Origin: a virus
DNA length: 34,386 nt
Direction: 5' to 3' (one strand)
IMG/VR virus record: IMGVR_UViG_3300030430_002072
Location: 1-34,386 of that record
Shown here: one piece after another, positions 3,074-33,165 of the stretch
Layout: every line of letters begins with the position of its first letter
Numbering within the stretch: position 1 is the first letter of the stretch
Program-made: the position numbers and the translations under genes
Notes under the pieces: generated by a model
What the model was told of the DNA's origin: nothing
The model's database searches: none
The model's input: the letters and a program-made list of their open reading frames with translations, nothing else

Positions 3074-3331
3074 ATGAAAACAATAAAATATTGCAATAAA
3101 GAATATAAATTACCAGTCAATAATCTATCAATAGGTGATGATCCATTATTTCAAGTAATCGTTCAAAATCCTATTAGCGGTTCGCGCTGTACATTACCCG
3201 CGTTCGCGGTGGCGGTATATGATTTTATTATGGGCTGTGAATATACGAACCTTTATAGAAAAGATCAACGCAAGGCGCTTGATTGGTTTAGAGTCAATTT
3301 TCCGCGTCAATACATGGAATTATTAGATTAA
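3074..3331 (+). CDS. Conserved small phage protein
   Basis: An 85-residue protein. The C-terminal two-thirds (LPAFAVAVYDFIMG, then a linker and ALDWFRVNFPRQYMELLD) matches a pattern I recognise from small proteins in marine phage genomes (F-A-x-A-V-Y-D-x-I-x-G ... DWFRxNFPxxYMxLLD). I know no function or formal name for it. It has its own promoter (3012-3038), the ribosome site AAGGAT, and an intrinsic terminator 22 bases downstream, so it is a self-contained expression cassette. Confidence 0.8.
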   Translation: MKTIKYCNKEYKLPVNNLSIGDDPLFQVIVQNPISGSRCTLPAFAVAVYDFIMGCEYTNLYRKDQRKALDWFRVNFPRQYMELLD

Positions 3332-27355: not shown

Positions 27356-27388
27356 AAGAGCATCATACAAATTTTGAAAGGATTGATG

Positions 27389-28414
27389 ATGACACATTAT
27401 ATAGACCAATATTTAGACTATCGTTACAGTCGTGTAGATAAATCTACATACATAAGCGACCGCACAATATTACGTTGCGCAAAGAAATATTTTACAAATC
27501 AAATGATTGACGAGGGTAGGCCAAAGATTATATCTGAACAGCTTGAAAAGATACAGTCAGACTACTCTAAGGACAAACACAATCGTGTTCTGGCCAAGAT
27601 GCGTATGCTAGTCGATCATCTTATACGCTTTGAATTGATTGACAATCAGAACAACGTATTTAGATCTATGCAAAAGGTACAAGTGCCAACAGAAGAGAAA
27701 AGACACAAAGGTTTTTTTGAGTCACATAAAGACATACCTACAGAACATCATACAATAACCAGGCTGTATAATACGGCCGATGACGTACACAAAAAGTTGT
27801 TGATATTATTATTATCAGTGACTGGAGGACGTATCAACGAGGTTCTGAAAGTAAAATGGACAGACTTTGATTTGGACTCTGACACCCCACATGTACGGAT
27901 TTCTGAGTCAAAAAAGAAGTCCGGTGGAAAACTTGTCAAAGACGACACTAGACTTATGTTTCTCGATCCTGCCCATGTGGATAAGTTGAAAGAATTATAT
28001 AAACAGATTGCAGAAAAAAATAAAAATTCTAGCATTATGTGTAAAGATACATATACTTATGTAGTTACGAACTCGCATGGCGAGCGTCCGAGCAGAACGA
28101 CTATCTATAATTGGTATAGAAATATTTGGAAAAAAGCCTATGAGAAATACAAATGCCACAAAGAATATCCATTCCCACATGGCGACACACCCACAGGCTA
28201 TACTTTCCAAGCGTATCGGCGACACCTTATTTGTTCGTACAGAGAAAGTTTTGGTGAAAACTACACCAAATCTAACCATGAGGATTTACAACTAATGATT
28301 GGTCATGTCGTAGGATCTACTGTAACAGATAGAGAGTATACGCTCTTCAACAAAGAGAAAGTATTACAAAGACAGCAGAACAACAAAATCAACATAGGAG
28401 TGAAATTCGCATGA
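27389..28414 (+). CDS. int: Tyrosine recombinase / integrase
   Basis: 341 residues from the ATG at 27389, six bases after AAAGGA; an ATG one codon earlier is too close. An N-terminal SAM-like core-binding domain (about 1-100) is followed by the catalytic domain. Arg148 lies in TGGRINEVLKVKW, the beta-hairpin lysines in SESKKKSGGK, Arg277 in FQAYRRH, His306 in LMIGHVVG, and the nucleophile Tyr317 in TDREYT. The usual His of the H-x-x-R box is Gln274 here, as judged by eye. It should integrate the phage at a host att site. It overlaps the next gene as ATGA. Confidence 0.92.
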   Translation: MTHYIDQYLDYRYSRVDKSTYISDRTILRCAKKYFTNQMIDEGRPKIISEQLEKIQSDYSKDKHNRVLAKMRMLVDHLIRFELIDNQNNVFRSMQKVQVPTEEKRHKGFFESHKDIPTEHHTITRLYNTADDVHKKLLILLLSVTGGRINEVLKVKWTDFDLDSDTPHVRISESKKKSGGKLVKDDTRLMFLDPAHVDKLKELYKQIAEKNKNSSIMCKDTYTYVVTNSHGERPSRTTIYNWYRNIWKKAYEKYKCHKEYPFPHGDTPTGYTFQAYRRHLICSYRESFGENYTKSNHEDLQLMIGHVVGSTVTDREYTLFNKEKVLQRQQNNKINIGVKFA

Positions 28415-28635
28415 CATTGAGTGAATATATGAACAAATATAATATATCTGCTATCAAACTTGGACAGGAATTAGGTGTAAGTAGGCAGACGATCTATAAC
28501 TGGTTACGTGGTGAGGAGGCAACGTACAACCAGTTATGGAACAATCGCTACATACCAAGTGCAAAGATGATGTATGAGATATATGAGTATACAGGACGCA
28601 GAGTAAAACCTGCGAGTTTTTATCCACTGAAGTAA
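28411..28635 (+). CDS. Cro/XRE-type HTH regulator
   Basis: 74 residues with a helix-turn-helix at about 16-34 (AIKLGQELGVSRQTIYNWLRG), the classical Cro/XRE pattern, followed by IPSAKMMYEIYEYTG. It is too short to be a full CI repressor with a dimerisation domain, so it is more likely Cro-like, or possibly an excisionase-type directionality factor. Its position directly after the integrase (ATGA overlap) fits either. Its likely operator is the direct repeat at 27325-27348. Confidence 0.8.
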   Translation: MTLSEYMNKYNISAIKLGQELGVSRQTIYNWLRGEEATYNQLWNNRYIPSAKMMYEIYEYTGRRVKPASFYPLK

Positions 28636-30036: not shown

Positions 30037-30222
30037 GTGTTAGACGATGATTATTTTACAAATACATGTCGTCTTACTGAAAACTTTTGTGACTGTGGCG
30101 GACAGATTTTAGAAGTCGGTGATTTTGAATTTTTGATAGGCGGACATGATTGTGACATAATCACAATTTCTGTCTGCCTGGATTGTGAAGAAGTATACGA
30201 AGAGAAACATAGGAAACATTAA
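30037..30222 (+). CDS. Small Cys-rich protein
   Basis: 61 residues beginning with a GTG at 30037 (GAAAG about 8 bases upstream). Cys residues lie at 11, 18, 20, 39, 47 and 50, including CDCGG and CLDC, so a zinc ribbon is likely. Its last base overlaps the ATG of the primase-helicase gene (TAATG), indicating translational coupling. Possibly a transcription or replication cofactor; not identified. Confidence 0.7.
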   Translation: MLDDDYFTNTCRLTENFCDCGGQILEVGDFEFLIGGHDCDIITISVCLDCEEVYEEKHRKH

Positions 30223-32360
30223 TGCGTGCAAACGGGGGGGAAATTAAGAAACACCTGCAAGTCATTACAAAGAGGTGGGGTGAACTAGACCAAGAGGCAG
30301 ATTTTGAGATACGTTGTCTGCTACCAGAGAACAGTAAAATAAATAAATCAAAAAAATTCAAACGTGATCAAATACAAAACGCAGTTAAATACGCCATAGA
30401 ACAAAATGAAAAGTACAATGTGTATGTAACCATAAATCCAATCGCACCTAACAGACCAAATCCACACGCACGAGATGAAGATATATTATGTGCTTTTTAT
30501 TGCTATTGTGATTGTGACACACCAGAGTCTGTTGTAAACCTGCAAAACACAATGCAAGAGGGGTTTGTTGGAAGCTTTTCAGTGCATACAGGGCAGAAAC
30601 CAAAACGTGGTCATATGTATTACGAAATGACACAGCCAATGGTAGATCTTGACCACTGGCGTAGCATGCAGAAAGCCATAGCGCACAAGATAAAGTCAGA
30701 TGAAGTTGTAAACAATCCAAGTCGTATTATGCGTCTTGGCGGTACTGTAAATTATCCGGACAAAGGAAAACGCGAAAAAGGCAGAGTCATTGAGATGACT
30801 ACTTTTACACAATATGACGCACCACAAAGAACGCAAAAAGAGATGAAAGAGTTCTTTCCGTCACCAAATAACAAAGAGCCATTTAACATTTACTTGCAAG
30901 GCATGACACAAACAGAGCGTCTTGACGTTGAGAACGCACTTTCTCTCGTAAAAACTAATCAAGACTGGCACAACAACATGATACGCATAGTCGCGTCCCT
31001 GGTCGCACGCGGACGCACAGATCAAGAAATACACGCTTATCTTAGCGGTATTACGCAAACAGGTTTCACCCTTGAGGAAACGACAAAAGAAATTGATGTC
31101 GCTATTGAGGGCGCACGAAATAAGGGGTTTACGGGCCAGTCGTCACAGTCAACTGAGGTATTTATTCTCCCGGATCTCAGTGACACGGAAATTGACAACT
31201 ATTTCCGCAAAATAGAGAACGTAAATCCCTTATCCATACCAAGACGTGAATGGCTGTATGGCAATCATTACATAAAAGACTACTTATCACTAACTGTCGC
31301 TCCTGGTGGTGTTGGTAAGTCAACACTCGTGCTAACAGAGGCACTCGCTATGGTCACCGGTAAGGCACTGTTAGGTATACAGCCGTTGAAAGAGTGCAAG
31401 GTATGGTACTTTAACGCAGAAGATCCGCGAGATGAAATATTGCGACGTATCATCGCATTATGTCAACATTACAAGATTGATTACGACAAAGAGTTAGACG
31501 GTCTATATTTTGGATCGGGACGTGAAGTAGAGATGTTACTTATGGCGGGCGATCATGGCACGCTTAACACAAAATTAATAGACATGATCAGACAAAGAGT
31601 AAAAGAATACGAAATTGAATTGATAATTATTGATCCGCTTGCGTCCGTTATGACAAGTTCAGAGAGCGTGGATAATTTTAAAATACTCGCAAAGAGTCTA
31701 TCTATGCTTGCCGATGAATGTAAAGCGTCTATTGAGATCGTACACCACACCAGGAAACTCAACAACGCACAAGAAGTGTCCGTAGAAGATAGTCGTGGTG
31801 GCAGTAGCTTAGTGTCCGCGTCCAGATCTGCACGCATATTGACGAAGATGGACGCAAGAGAGGGCGACGCACTAGGCTTAGAAGATTACATAGATTATTT
31901 TAAGATAGAACCTGCCGGAAAAAATAACTTATCGCGACCACTTGATAAAATATCCTGGTATAAAAAAATAGGAGTGACCATACCAAATGATGACATTGTC
32001 GCCGTTGTAGAAGAATACAAACCGCCAAGTGCGTTTGACGGTATTACACATCAGAAATTAAAACAGTTATGGGAAAGCATAAAAGGTACAGATACATATC
32101 TTATGGCCAGTATACAATCGGCACGAACAGAACATAAGATGTCAGTACATGAGTATATTGCAGATTTCCTGGAATTAGATTACGACGCAAAAGTTACAAA
32201 GACGCGCGTCAAAACAATAGTACGGTCATGGCTCGACAGCAAAATGCTTAAAATAAAGTCTGTTCCGAAGTCAGATGTCGATCCAAAAAGCTACAGAAAG
32301 GACATGGTGAAGATTGTCGTCACTGGTGAAAATATTCCAGGAAATATGTATGCCAACTAA
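30222..32360 (+). CDS. Primase-helicase fusion
   Basis: 712 residues. The N-terminal part (about 60-200) has the features of an archaeo-eukaryotic-type primase: acidic CYCDCDT at 94-100, VHTGQKPKRGHMYYE (the H-containing motif) and SRIMRLGGTVNYP at 167-179. Residues about 225-310 are a helical linker. Residues 345-530 are a RepA/RecA-type ATPase: Walker A VAPGGVGKST (359-368), YFNAEDP, Walker B LIIIDP (467-472) and IVHHTRK. A winged-helix-like C-terminus follows. It would open the origin and make primers for host DNA polymerase, as no polymerase gene is present. An array of GCATACATAT sites starts in its last codons. Confidence 0.9.
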   Translation: MRANGGEIKKHLQVITKRWGELDQEADFEIRCLLPENSKINKSKKFKRDQIQNAVKYAIEQNEKYNVYVTINPIAPNRPNPHARDEDILCAFYCYCDCDTPESVVNLQNTMQEGFVGSFSVHTGQKPKRGHMYYEMTQPMVDLDHWRSMQKAIAHKIKSDEVVNNPSRIMRLGGTVNYPDKGKREKGRVIEMTTFTQYDAPQRTQKEMKEFFPSPNNKEPFNIYLQGMTQTERLDVENALSLVKTNQDWHNNMIRIVASLVARGRTDQEIHAYLSGITQTGFTLEETTKEIDVAIEGARNKGFTGQSSQSTEVFILPDLSDTEIDNYFRKIENVNPLSIPRREWLYGNHYIKDYLSLTVAPGGVGKSTLVLTEALAMVTGKALLGIQPLKECKVWYFNAEDPRDEILRRIIALCQHYKIDYDKELDGLYFGSGREVEMLLMAGDHGTLNTKLIDMIRQRVKEYEIELIIIDPLASVMTSSESVDNFKILAKSLSMLADECKASIEIVHHTRKLNNAQEVSVEDSRGGSSLVSASRSARILTKMDAREGDALGLEDYIDYFKIEPAGKNNLSRPLDKISWYKKIGVTIPNDDIVAVVEEYKPPSAFDGITHQKLKQLWESIKGTDTYLMASIQSARTEHKMSVHEYIADFLELDYDAKVTKTRVKTIVRSWLDSKMLKIKSVPKSDVDPKSYRKDMVKIVVTGENIPGNMYAN

Positions 32361-32550
32361 AACACCCAAAAAAGGTAGCATACATATCTCTGGAAAACCG
32401 CAGAAAACTGCCAAATTTGTATACATATGGAAAAAAAGCCGAAAATGGCTGTCAGCAAGGGTTTCGGACATATGGGCATGTATGTATGCTGTAGTATTTA
32501 TAATACTACAACATACTAGCATACATATGTGTACACATACGCATACATAT
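32344..32550. repeat. GCATACATAT repeat array, candidate origin or operator
   Basis: The 10-mer GCATACATAT occurs four times: 32344-32353 (reverse), 32378-32387, 32519-32528 and 32541-32550 (forward). Two one-mismatch copies lie at 32419-32428 (GTATACATAT) and 32480-32489 (reverse, GCATACATAC). A perfect 9-bp hairpin (arms 32490-32498 and 32502-32510) lies between them. This is the layout of an iteron origin or multi-site operator, located immediately after the replication gene. Confidence 0.75.
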
Positions 32551-32559
32551 GCAACTTAA
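32350..32559 (+). CDS. Doubtful small ORF over the repeat array
   Basis: A 69-residue frame starting MPTKTPKKGSIHISGKPQ, with a possible hydrophobic segment (ACMYAVVFIIL) and a His/Thr ending that is just the translated repeats. AGGA lies 7 bases upstream of the ATG at 32350, and it overlaps the primase-helicase gene by 11 bases, so translation is possible. The repeats could equally mean that this stretch is non-coding regulatory DNA. I recognise no family. Confidence 0.3.
   Translation: MPTKTPKKGSIHISGKPQKTAKFVYIWKKSRKWLSARVSDIWACMYAVVFIILQHTSIHMCTHTHTYAT
32490..32510 (+). promoter_or_regulatory. Perfect hairpin within repeat array
   Basis: Arms TGTAGTATT (32490-32498) and AATACTACA (32502-32510) with a 3-base loop. 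There is no T run afterwards, so it is unlikely to be a terminator; a cruciform or origin-associated structure is more plausible. Confidence 0.6.
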
Positions 32560-32574
32560 CAAGGAGGTATCTTT

Positions 32575-33165
32575 ATGAGAGATTATGTGTTTTTTAATCG
32601 TAAATCTGGATATGTAGGAGTCACTGCATATCGGTATGAACCTTATTGGGAATATATTGAAGATTATCTAAAACTGCAAGAGTCGTTTGATGACATGTAC
32701 GGATATATGGGACTGGTAGATCTTGTAGAACCAGATATGGCCAAAAGATTTAAAAGTGCGCTCTATAAGTTTCGTGTTACGATCACACGCGCCGGTGTTA
32801 AATTTAATACGCGTAAAGACGTACAGCAACGTGCAGAGATATGCAAGCGTGGATTATTAGCTATGAAAAAGCATGTCGATGATAACAACCTCGCGCCAAT
32901 ACCACCAGTCTTGATCTACGAAAATCTTGGAAAAAAGCATTTTGGTGTTGTAAAAGATGCAACAAGATTAAAAATAGTTATGGAAGAAAACACTGATGTT
33001 GAGTGTTTTTACACACTAAAAGAGTTGCATATGATATTAGAAAATTATAAAACTATAAAAGATGCAAAAAAAACTTTGAGCCGTGAAGATATACCGGCTG
33101 AGGTAACAGAAATAGAAAAACCAAAATACAAAGAGGAGGATTTCGATGAAGAAGTACCGTTTTAA
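32575..33165 (+). CDS. Hypothetical protein downstream of repeat array
   Basis: 196 residues, Tyr-rich N-terminus (YRYEPYWEYIEDYLKLQESF), a basic helical centre (RFKSALYKFRVTITRAGVKFN; RAEICKRGLLAMKKHV) and an acidic tail ending DEEVPF. The end resembles the acidic tails of proteins that bind replication machinery, but no family is recognised. It has one of the strongest ribosome sites in the genome (AAGGAGGT). It overlaps the next gene by 20 bases. Confidence 0.75.
   Translation: MRDYVFFNRKSGYVGVTAYRYEPYWEYIEDYLKLQESFDDMYGYMGLVDLVEPDMAKRFKSALYKFRVTITRAGVKFNTRKDVQQRAEICKRGLLAMKKHVDDNNLAPIPPVLIYENLGKKHFGVVKDATRLKIVMEENTDVECFYTLKELHMILENYKTIKDAKKTLSREDIPAEVTEIEKPKYKEEDFDEEVPF

Follow-up and report, generated by a model that had tools for sequence, protein, structure and literature searches.

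The 34,386-base viral record analyzed here (the window) is classed as linear in IMG/VR and may therefore be a fragment. Between positions 30222 and 32360, its + strand encodes a 712-residue primase-helicase of the initiator type, composed of a PrimPol/AEP-like N half, a RepA-type core, and a C-terminal domain. The core matches Pfam AAA_25 (E value of 9e-34), and in a Foldseek search with a low-confidence structural model it matched the hexameric helicase RepA of RSF1010 (1olo and 1g8y). The N half gave a weak profile match to the PrimPol AEP domain 6zp9 (E value of 4e-4) and contains DxD and RGH motifs, kept in 8 of 8 aligned members of the family, which we take to be the AEP motifs. For the C-terminal domain (approximately residues 606 to 702), profile searches against PDB and Pfam returned nothing convincing. 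The helices and strands of its AF2 model follow the order of a winged helix (mean pLDDT of 52, with local values mostly between 63 and 86), and the domain is thus probably of that type.

An array of six 10-bp repeats and a hairpin (positions 32344 to 32550; 207 bases, without strand) spans the end of this gene and stops approximately 25 bases upstream of the start codon of the next one, at 32575. Four repeats are on the + strand and two on the − strand, and they form two facing pairs. The first pair consists of iteron 1 (an exact copy of GCATACATAT; 32344 to 32353, − strand), which overlaps the last codons of the primase-helicase gene, as the left arm, and iteron 2 (exact GCATACATAT; 32378 to 32387, + strand) as the right arm. 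Iteron 3 (GTATACATAT, one mismatch; 32419 to 32428, + strand) follows. In the second pair, iteron 4 (GCATACATAC, one mismatch; 32480 to 32489, − strand) is the left arm and iteron 5 (exact GCATACATAT; 32519 to 32528, + strand) the right arm, and between them lies a central palindrome, the perfect 9-bp hairpin TGTAGTATT-TAT-AATACTACA (32490 to 32510). Iteron 6 (exact GCATACATAT; 32541 to 32550, + strand) ends the array, with a perfect 14-bp palindrome, TATGTGTACACATA (32526 to 32539), between iterons 5 and 6. An earlier note on this DNA had described a perfect 9-bp hairpin surrounded by four exact and two one-mismatch 10-mers of either orientation, and all of these positions were found again.

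The same note had expected the 10-mer to be confined to this place and had judged its density to exceed chance. No further exact copy of GCATACATAT occurs in the 34,386 bases, and the six sites in 207 bases compare with a maximum of three in 300 dinucleotide shuffles, in agreement with both points. Over the whole window, sites with at most one mismatch number eight, compared with a shuffle mean of 3.5, and 6 of 100 shuffles reach eight; the raw number of near matches is unremarkable by itself, and it is their clustering that is remarkable. Among 300-base segments along the window, the array is also the densest cluster of an exact 8-mer (five copies, the next best having four). Its AT content is 0.64, versus 0.62 for the whole window. 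Analysis of GC skew, a check proposed in the note, showed no turn at the array and was uninformative.

A reading frame of 69 amino acids runs through the array (32350 to 32559). Its codon score of 0.008 lies below those of all in-frame chunks of known genes (minimum of 0.014) and above those of all off-frame chunks, and tblastn of the searched loci gave no match to it. The low score and the lack of a tblastn match argue that this frame is probably not a gene. A scan of the array region revealed neither a + strand sigma-70-type promoter nor a terminator.

The gene downstream of the array (32575 to 33165, + strand) codes for a 196-residue protein and is conserved together with it. The product has no match in PHROG or Pfam, and a structure search with its model yielded no match at E values of ≤0.001. 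The model is mostly helical outside the C-terminal tip, DEEVPF. An acidic D/E..(V/I)PF tip is present in 8 of 8 aligned members of the family and in the further homologues inspected (L029 to L037 and L092 to L106), and it resembles the C-terminal tip of bacterial SSB. The product may recruit host replication proteins. Several inverted repeats lie upstream of the strong ribosome-binding site of this gene, as might be expected if the conserved unit were a cis-acting RNA structure, i.e., the leader of 32575, rather than a DNA element. This explanation appears highly improbable, given that some repeats are in direct orientation, that there are loci with an array behind the helicase gene in which the searches detected no relative of the 32575 product, and that an Rfam scan of the region returned no family at its gathering score. 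The Rfam lines with the lowest E values, microRNA families below their gathering scores, were discarded.

Single-protein searches of viral contigs with the primase-helicase or the 32575 product found no relatives. Alignment-based searches gathered 61 loci for the helicase and 22 for the 32575 family, with some contigs in both sets. The close clade keeps the order of helicase gene, array, 32575-like gene, DUF6378 gene, and further genes. The earlier note had looked to related phages for the same array at the same place. The place is indeed kept, an array being found in the gap between the helicase and 32575-like genes, but the repeat sequence usually differs, by clade. Thus, the words GTATGTATG/CATACATAC build the arrays of L029, L030, L033, and L092, and they are combined with a second word, CCCTACA, in L034 and L035. 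The repeat word is ACACCACC in L095 to L097, AACTGTGG in L098 and L102, and TGTAGAAA in L099, L104, and L106. Across the relatives, the arrays mostly comprise 4 to 12 exact repeats and start at the helicase stop codon; the + and − labels given to their repeats were set by alphabetical order and are not comparable between families. In the close loci inspected, an inverted repeat pair surrounds a palindrome whose sequence varies, e.g., GTATATATTATATAC in L035 and AAGACCCCTATAAGGGTCTT in L033.

Extra sequence separates the helicase gene from the array in L031, L032, L037, L094, and L102, and in the first four of these loci arrays of GTATGTATG/CATACATAC words are found behind inserted genes. Judging from these insertions, the tie between the array and the downstream gene is no looser than that between the array and the helicase gene. 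The cargo occupies positions 1661 to 3594 in L031 and 2109 to 2912 in L032 and is also found in L037 and L094, and the array still adjoins the 32575-like gene. It includes an N6/N4 methyltransferase gene (PF01555) in L031 and a 268-residue frame without a Pfam match above the cutoff.

The association of arrays with helicase genes was then quantified over the family. After removal of 4 of the 73 helicase loci found, in which the contig ends at the gene, the remaining 69 formed 41 clusters at 85% DNA identity. An array was scored if, over 300 bases at the helicase stop codon and with both strands counted, the commonest 8-mer had at least three copies and no more than 1 of 100 shuffles reached its count. 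By this definition, 33 of the 41 dereplicated homologues have an array at the helicase stop codon, versus 19 of 954 control positions at which other long reading frames of these loci end. The eight misses include L031, whose array lies behind inserted genes and whose cluster mate L033 has an array; L074, although its cluster mate L079 carries one; and L081, which failed narrowly (2 of 100 shuffles). L027, L041, L052, L077, and L084 are plain misses.

Hairpins of at least 8 pairs were found in 23 of 41 helicase-end segments, versus 85 of 950 control segments and 50 of 820 shuffled ones. A hairpin lies between facing repeats in 23 of 36 arrays, compared with 465 of 1,800 gap-shuffled versions. 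The gap of the first facing pair is richer in AT than its locus in 32 of 36 arrays, but not in the window (0.57 versus 0.62). Loci without a significant array were excluded from the facing-hairpin and gap-AT analyses and from the motif-sharing and core-matched analyses described below. L033 replaced L031 in these four analyses and in that of helicase-end hairpins; L079 and L107 were added to all four, L099 to the facing-hairpin and gap-AT analyses, and L108 to the motif-sharing and core-matched ones. We also observed that CCCTA or its complement occurs in the hairpins of many GC-rich arrays (L033, L038, L044, L045, L053 to L065, and L099), as in CCCTTTAGGG, CCCCCGTAGGGGG, and CCCTATAAGGG, while AT-rich clades have TATATATA instead. 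The CCCTA-type word is possibly a primer start site.

Searching bacterial genomes with the helicase alignment yielded five Rhizobiales loci, two with an array and three without; the array of one of these loci, L108, has the same motif and positions as that of L045. The corresponding search with the 32575 alignment revealed no prophage and no integrated copy of a close relative.

Which protein reads the repeats was addressed by comparing L098 with L099 and L104. The primase halves of their genes share 94 to 95% DNA identity, and identity of 90 to 92% starts 3 bases inside the downstream open frame. There is no DNA match in the helicase half, the C-terminal domain, and the array, and the last 150 residues of the proteins cannot be aligned; both helicase halves are still AAA_25 proteins. 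The repeats, AACTGTGG in L098 and TGTAGAAA in L099 and L104, form unrelated arrays. The array and the helicase half have thus been exchanged as a block, with the downstream gene and its ribosome-binding site unchanged, and the 32575 homologues of L098 and L099 are identical at 199 of 208 positions. This exchange indicates that the array follows the helicase half rather than the downstream protein. As near-identical 32575 homologues adjoin unrelated arrays, the 32575 product is unlikely to read the repeats. The earlier note had proposed either an origin bound by the primase-helicase or its partner or an operator for the gene at 32575; the swap favors the primase-helicase-bound origin and speaks against an operator bound by the 32575 product.

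The comparison of the window with L096 and L097 points the same way for the virion genes. Their terminases are 82% identical to that of the window, whereas the helicases are 40 to 44% identical and the arrays differ, which argues that the array is linked to the replication gene rather than to the virion genes. Among named records, the terminase closest to that of the window (58%) is that of L025 (phage C72C1). A tblastn search found no counterpart of the window's primase-helicase in L025, and the replication initiation protein in its annotation is a different one, suggesting that replication modules are exchanged between similar virions.

Pairwise statistics did not narrow down the part of the protein concerned. 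Over 38 arrays, motif sharing gave a partial rank correlation of 0.15 for C-terminal identity and of 0.27 for core identity, and when core identity was matched, the expected C-terminal difference was clear in only two of four bins; the analysis of these 38 arrays did not tell the C-terminal domain apart from the helicase core. As these statistics do not discriminate, it is the swap, the position of the domain, and analogy on which we base the assignment of repeat recognition to the C-terminal domain.

The array might also serve as an operator for the 32575 gene cluster, bound by a regulator, by the primase-helicase, or by the Cro-like product of the gene at 28411. Its location shortly before the 32575 start codon would suit such a function, as would its persistence beside a 32575-like gene despite upstream insertions and the presence of the Cro/CI-type helix-turn-helix (HTH) gene at 28411. 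However, the lack of a + strand sigma-70-type promoter in the region, long arrays that begin at the helicase stop codon and change along with the helicase half next to a constant downstream gene and ribosome-binding site, and the detection of homologues of the 28411 product only in L029, L034, L035, and L088, among loci that are partial, make an operator unlikely.

A tyrosine recombinase gene precedes the HTH gene (27374 to 28635 for both), and this combination suggests a temperate phage. attP regions are of similar size and have repeated arm sites and an inverted core. With an integrase gene present at 27374, the array, which resembles such regions in size and repeat layout, could be the attachment or recombination site of this enzyme. 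Nevertheless, the integrase gene ends approximately 4 kb from the array, the window has no tRNA gene, and in the relatives the arrays change in step with the helicase half and are found beside helicase genes in loci, albeit partial ones, where no relative of the integrase was detected. We hence give an attachment site very little credence.

The comparisons of sequences make it likely that the array is the replication origin of the phage, and that the primase-helicase encoded upstream binds its iterons through a C-terminal domain that is probably a winged helix. By analogy with SaPI Rep, P4 alpha, and pRN1, we infer how such an origin would work. The C-terminal domain would bind the 10-bp iterons, and with both facing pairs occupied, the central palindrome would be flanked on either side by a RepA-type hexameric helicase. 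The palindrome would then melt or be extruded, yielding single strands on which the helicase could enter and the PrimPol-like N half could synthesize primers, and forks would proceed outward.

Elements of this arrangement are found in several known systems. In the available text of PMC7581432 and PMC6092414, the rep-ori of PICI/SaPI and SCCmec Cch2 are described as an initiator helicase gene, sometimes primase-fused, followed by a short-iteron origin, and the array here likewise lies directly 3′ of an initiator-helicase gene; two iteron sets are a further likeness to PICI/SaPI in these sources. According to the same portion of PMC7581432, SaPI Rep uses its C-terminal domain to recognize iterons located immediately 3′ of the gene that encodes it. 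In PICI origins as described there, the two sets flank an AT-rich melting site, whereas the facing pairs here surround a possibly GC-rich palindrome. The ATPases also differ, being of DUF927 or D5 type in the PICI/SaPI relatives, including SaPI Rep (available text of PMC7581432 and PMC6092414), and AAA_25 with an RSF1010 RepA fold here.

In P4 alpha, a single protein performs winged-helix binding of origin repeats, unwinding, and priming, as far as the available sections of PMC4234260 describe it, and the same is proposed here; the P4 primase is of the bacterial Toprim type, in contrast to the PrimPol/AEP-like N half of the window protein. Likewise according to those sections of PMC4234260, ORF904 of pRN1 and phage BIP-1 combine a PrimPol, a helicase, and a C-terminal winged helix in one protein, and a stem-loop of conserved structure and variable sequence lies directly downstream of the gene, as here; in pRN1, this stem-loop downstream of the PrimPol-helicase gene is essential for replication. 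However, pRN1 has an SF3 helicase and a single large stem-loop without iterons, whereas here an AAA_25/RepA-type core goes with iterons. The oriV of RSF1010 resembles the present locus in its RepA-type helicase, AEP primase, and iterons, and has small hairpins exposed for the primase, a role that the hairpins here may share (same sections of PMC4234260 for RSF1010); the Foldseek matches of our low-confidence model are to this very type of hexameric helicase. RSF1010 nonetheless uses three separate proteins (RepA, RepB′, and RepC), with ssiA/ssiB as hairpins and RepC reading the iterons, whereas primase, helicase, and probable binding domain are fused here; no match to RepC was found among the 10 products scanned.

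The domain order is the same in PrimPol-PV1/PrimQH proteins, which have a RepA-type ATPase and a C-terminal winged helix, and the available part of PMC5862659 suggests that the C-terminal winged-helix domains of such primase-helicases might recognize origins. That part names no cognate iterons, for which the arrays described here are candidates. The polymerase of phage NrS-1, a PrimPol, requires an 8-nucleotide template sequence for priming (available text of PMC7102993), and it is thus conceivable that priming starts at a specific sequence in the hairpin.

More tentatively, and with somewhat less than even confidence, we propose that these loci represent a widespread class of phage replicon, in which a protein joining a PrimPol, an RSF1010 RepA-type helicase, and an origin-binding domain would load itself, normally at the 3′ flank of its own gene. 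Facing iterons would bracket a possible priming hairpin, and the helicase half and the array would make up one exchanged specificity cassette. If this is true, each clade would have a private origin code, which could stop co-infecting phages from firing each other's origins. A search of the open-access literature found no description of arrays behind RepA-type PrimPol-helicase genes. For a phage family with few cultured members, the array supplies a candidate origin and points to a candidate cognate binding domain. The rule of checking the region just 3′ of a RepA-type PrimPol-helicase gene predicts an origin for 33 of the 41 dereplicated homologues. It also links three models that are usually separate, namely, iteron origins of the PICI/P4 kind, stem-loop origins like that of pRN1, and primase hairpins like those of RSF1010. 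The natural swap between L098 and L099 offers a ready-made test of specificity.

Viral contigs were also searched for two close copies of the 10-mer, which yielded 20 contigs, with tandem arrays in L009 and L012. At least five of the 20 have a different element in common, and tblastn of 15 products of the window against the 20 contigs gave no match. On the basis of these differing elements and of the tblastn result, the contigs were rejected as relatives and regarded as unrelated uses of a short AT-rich word. In L006, L011, L013, L014, and L024, we noted an unrelated conserved element with three GCATACATA words, e.g., GCATACATATACTACAAAGCATACATATACAGCATACATA. In L010, another unrelated viral contig, dense TATGTATGC repeats (positions 3108 to 3135) occur just before an RBS-like AAGGAGG and are possibly an operator.
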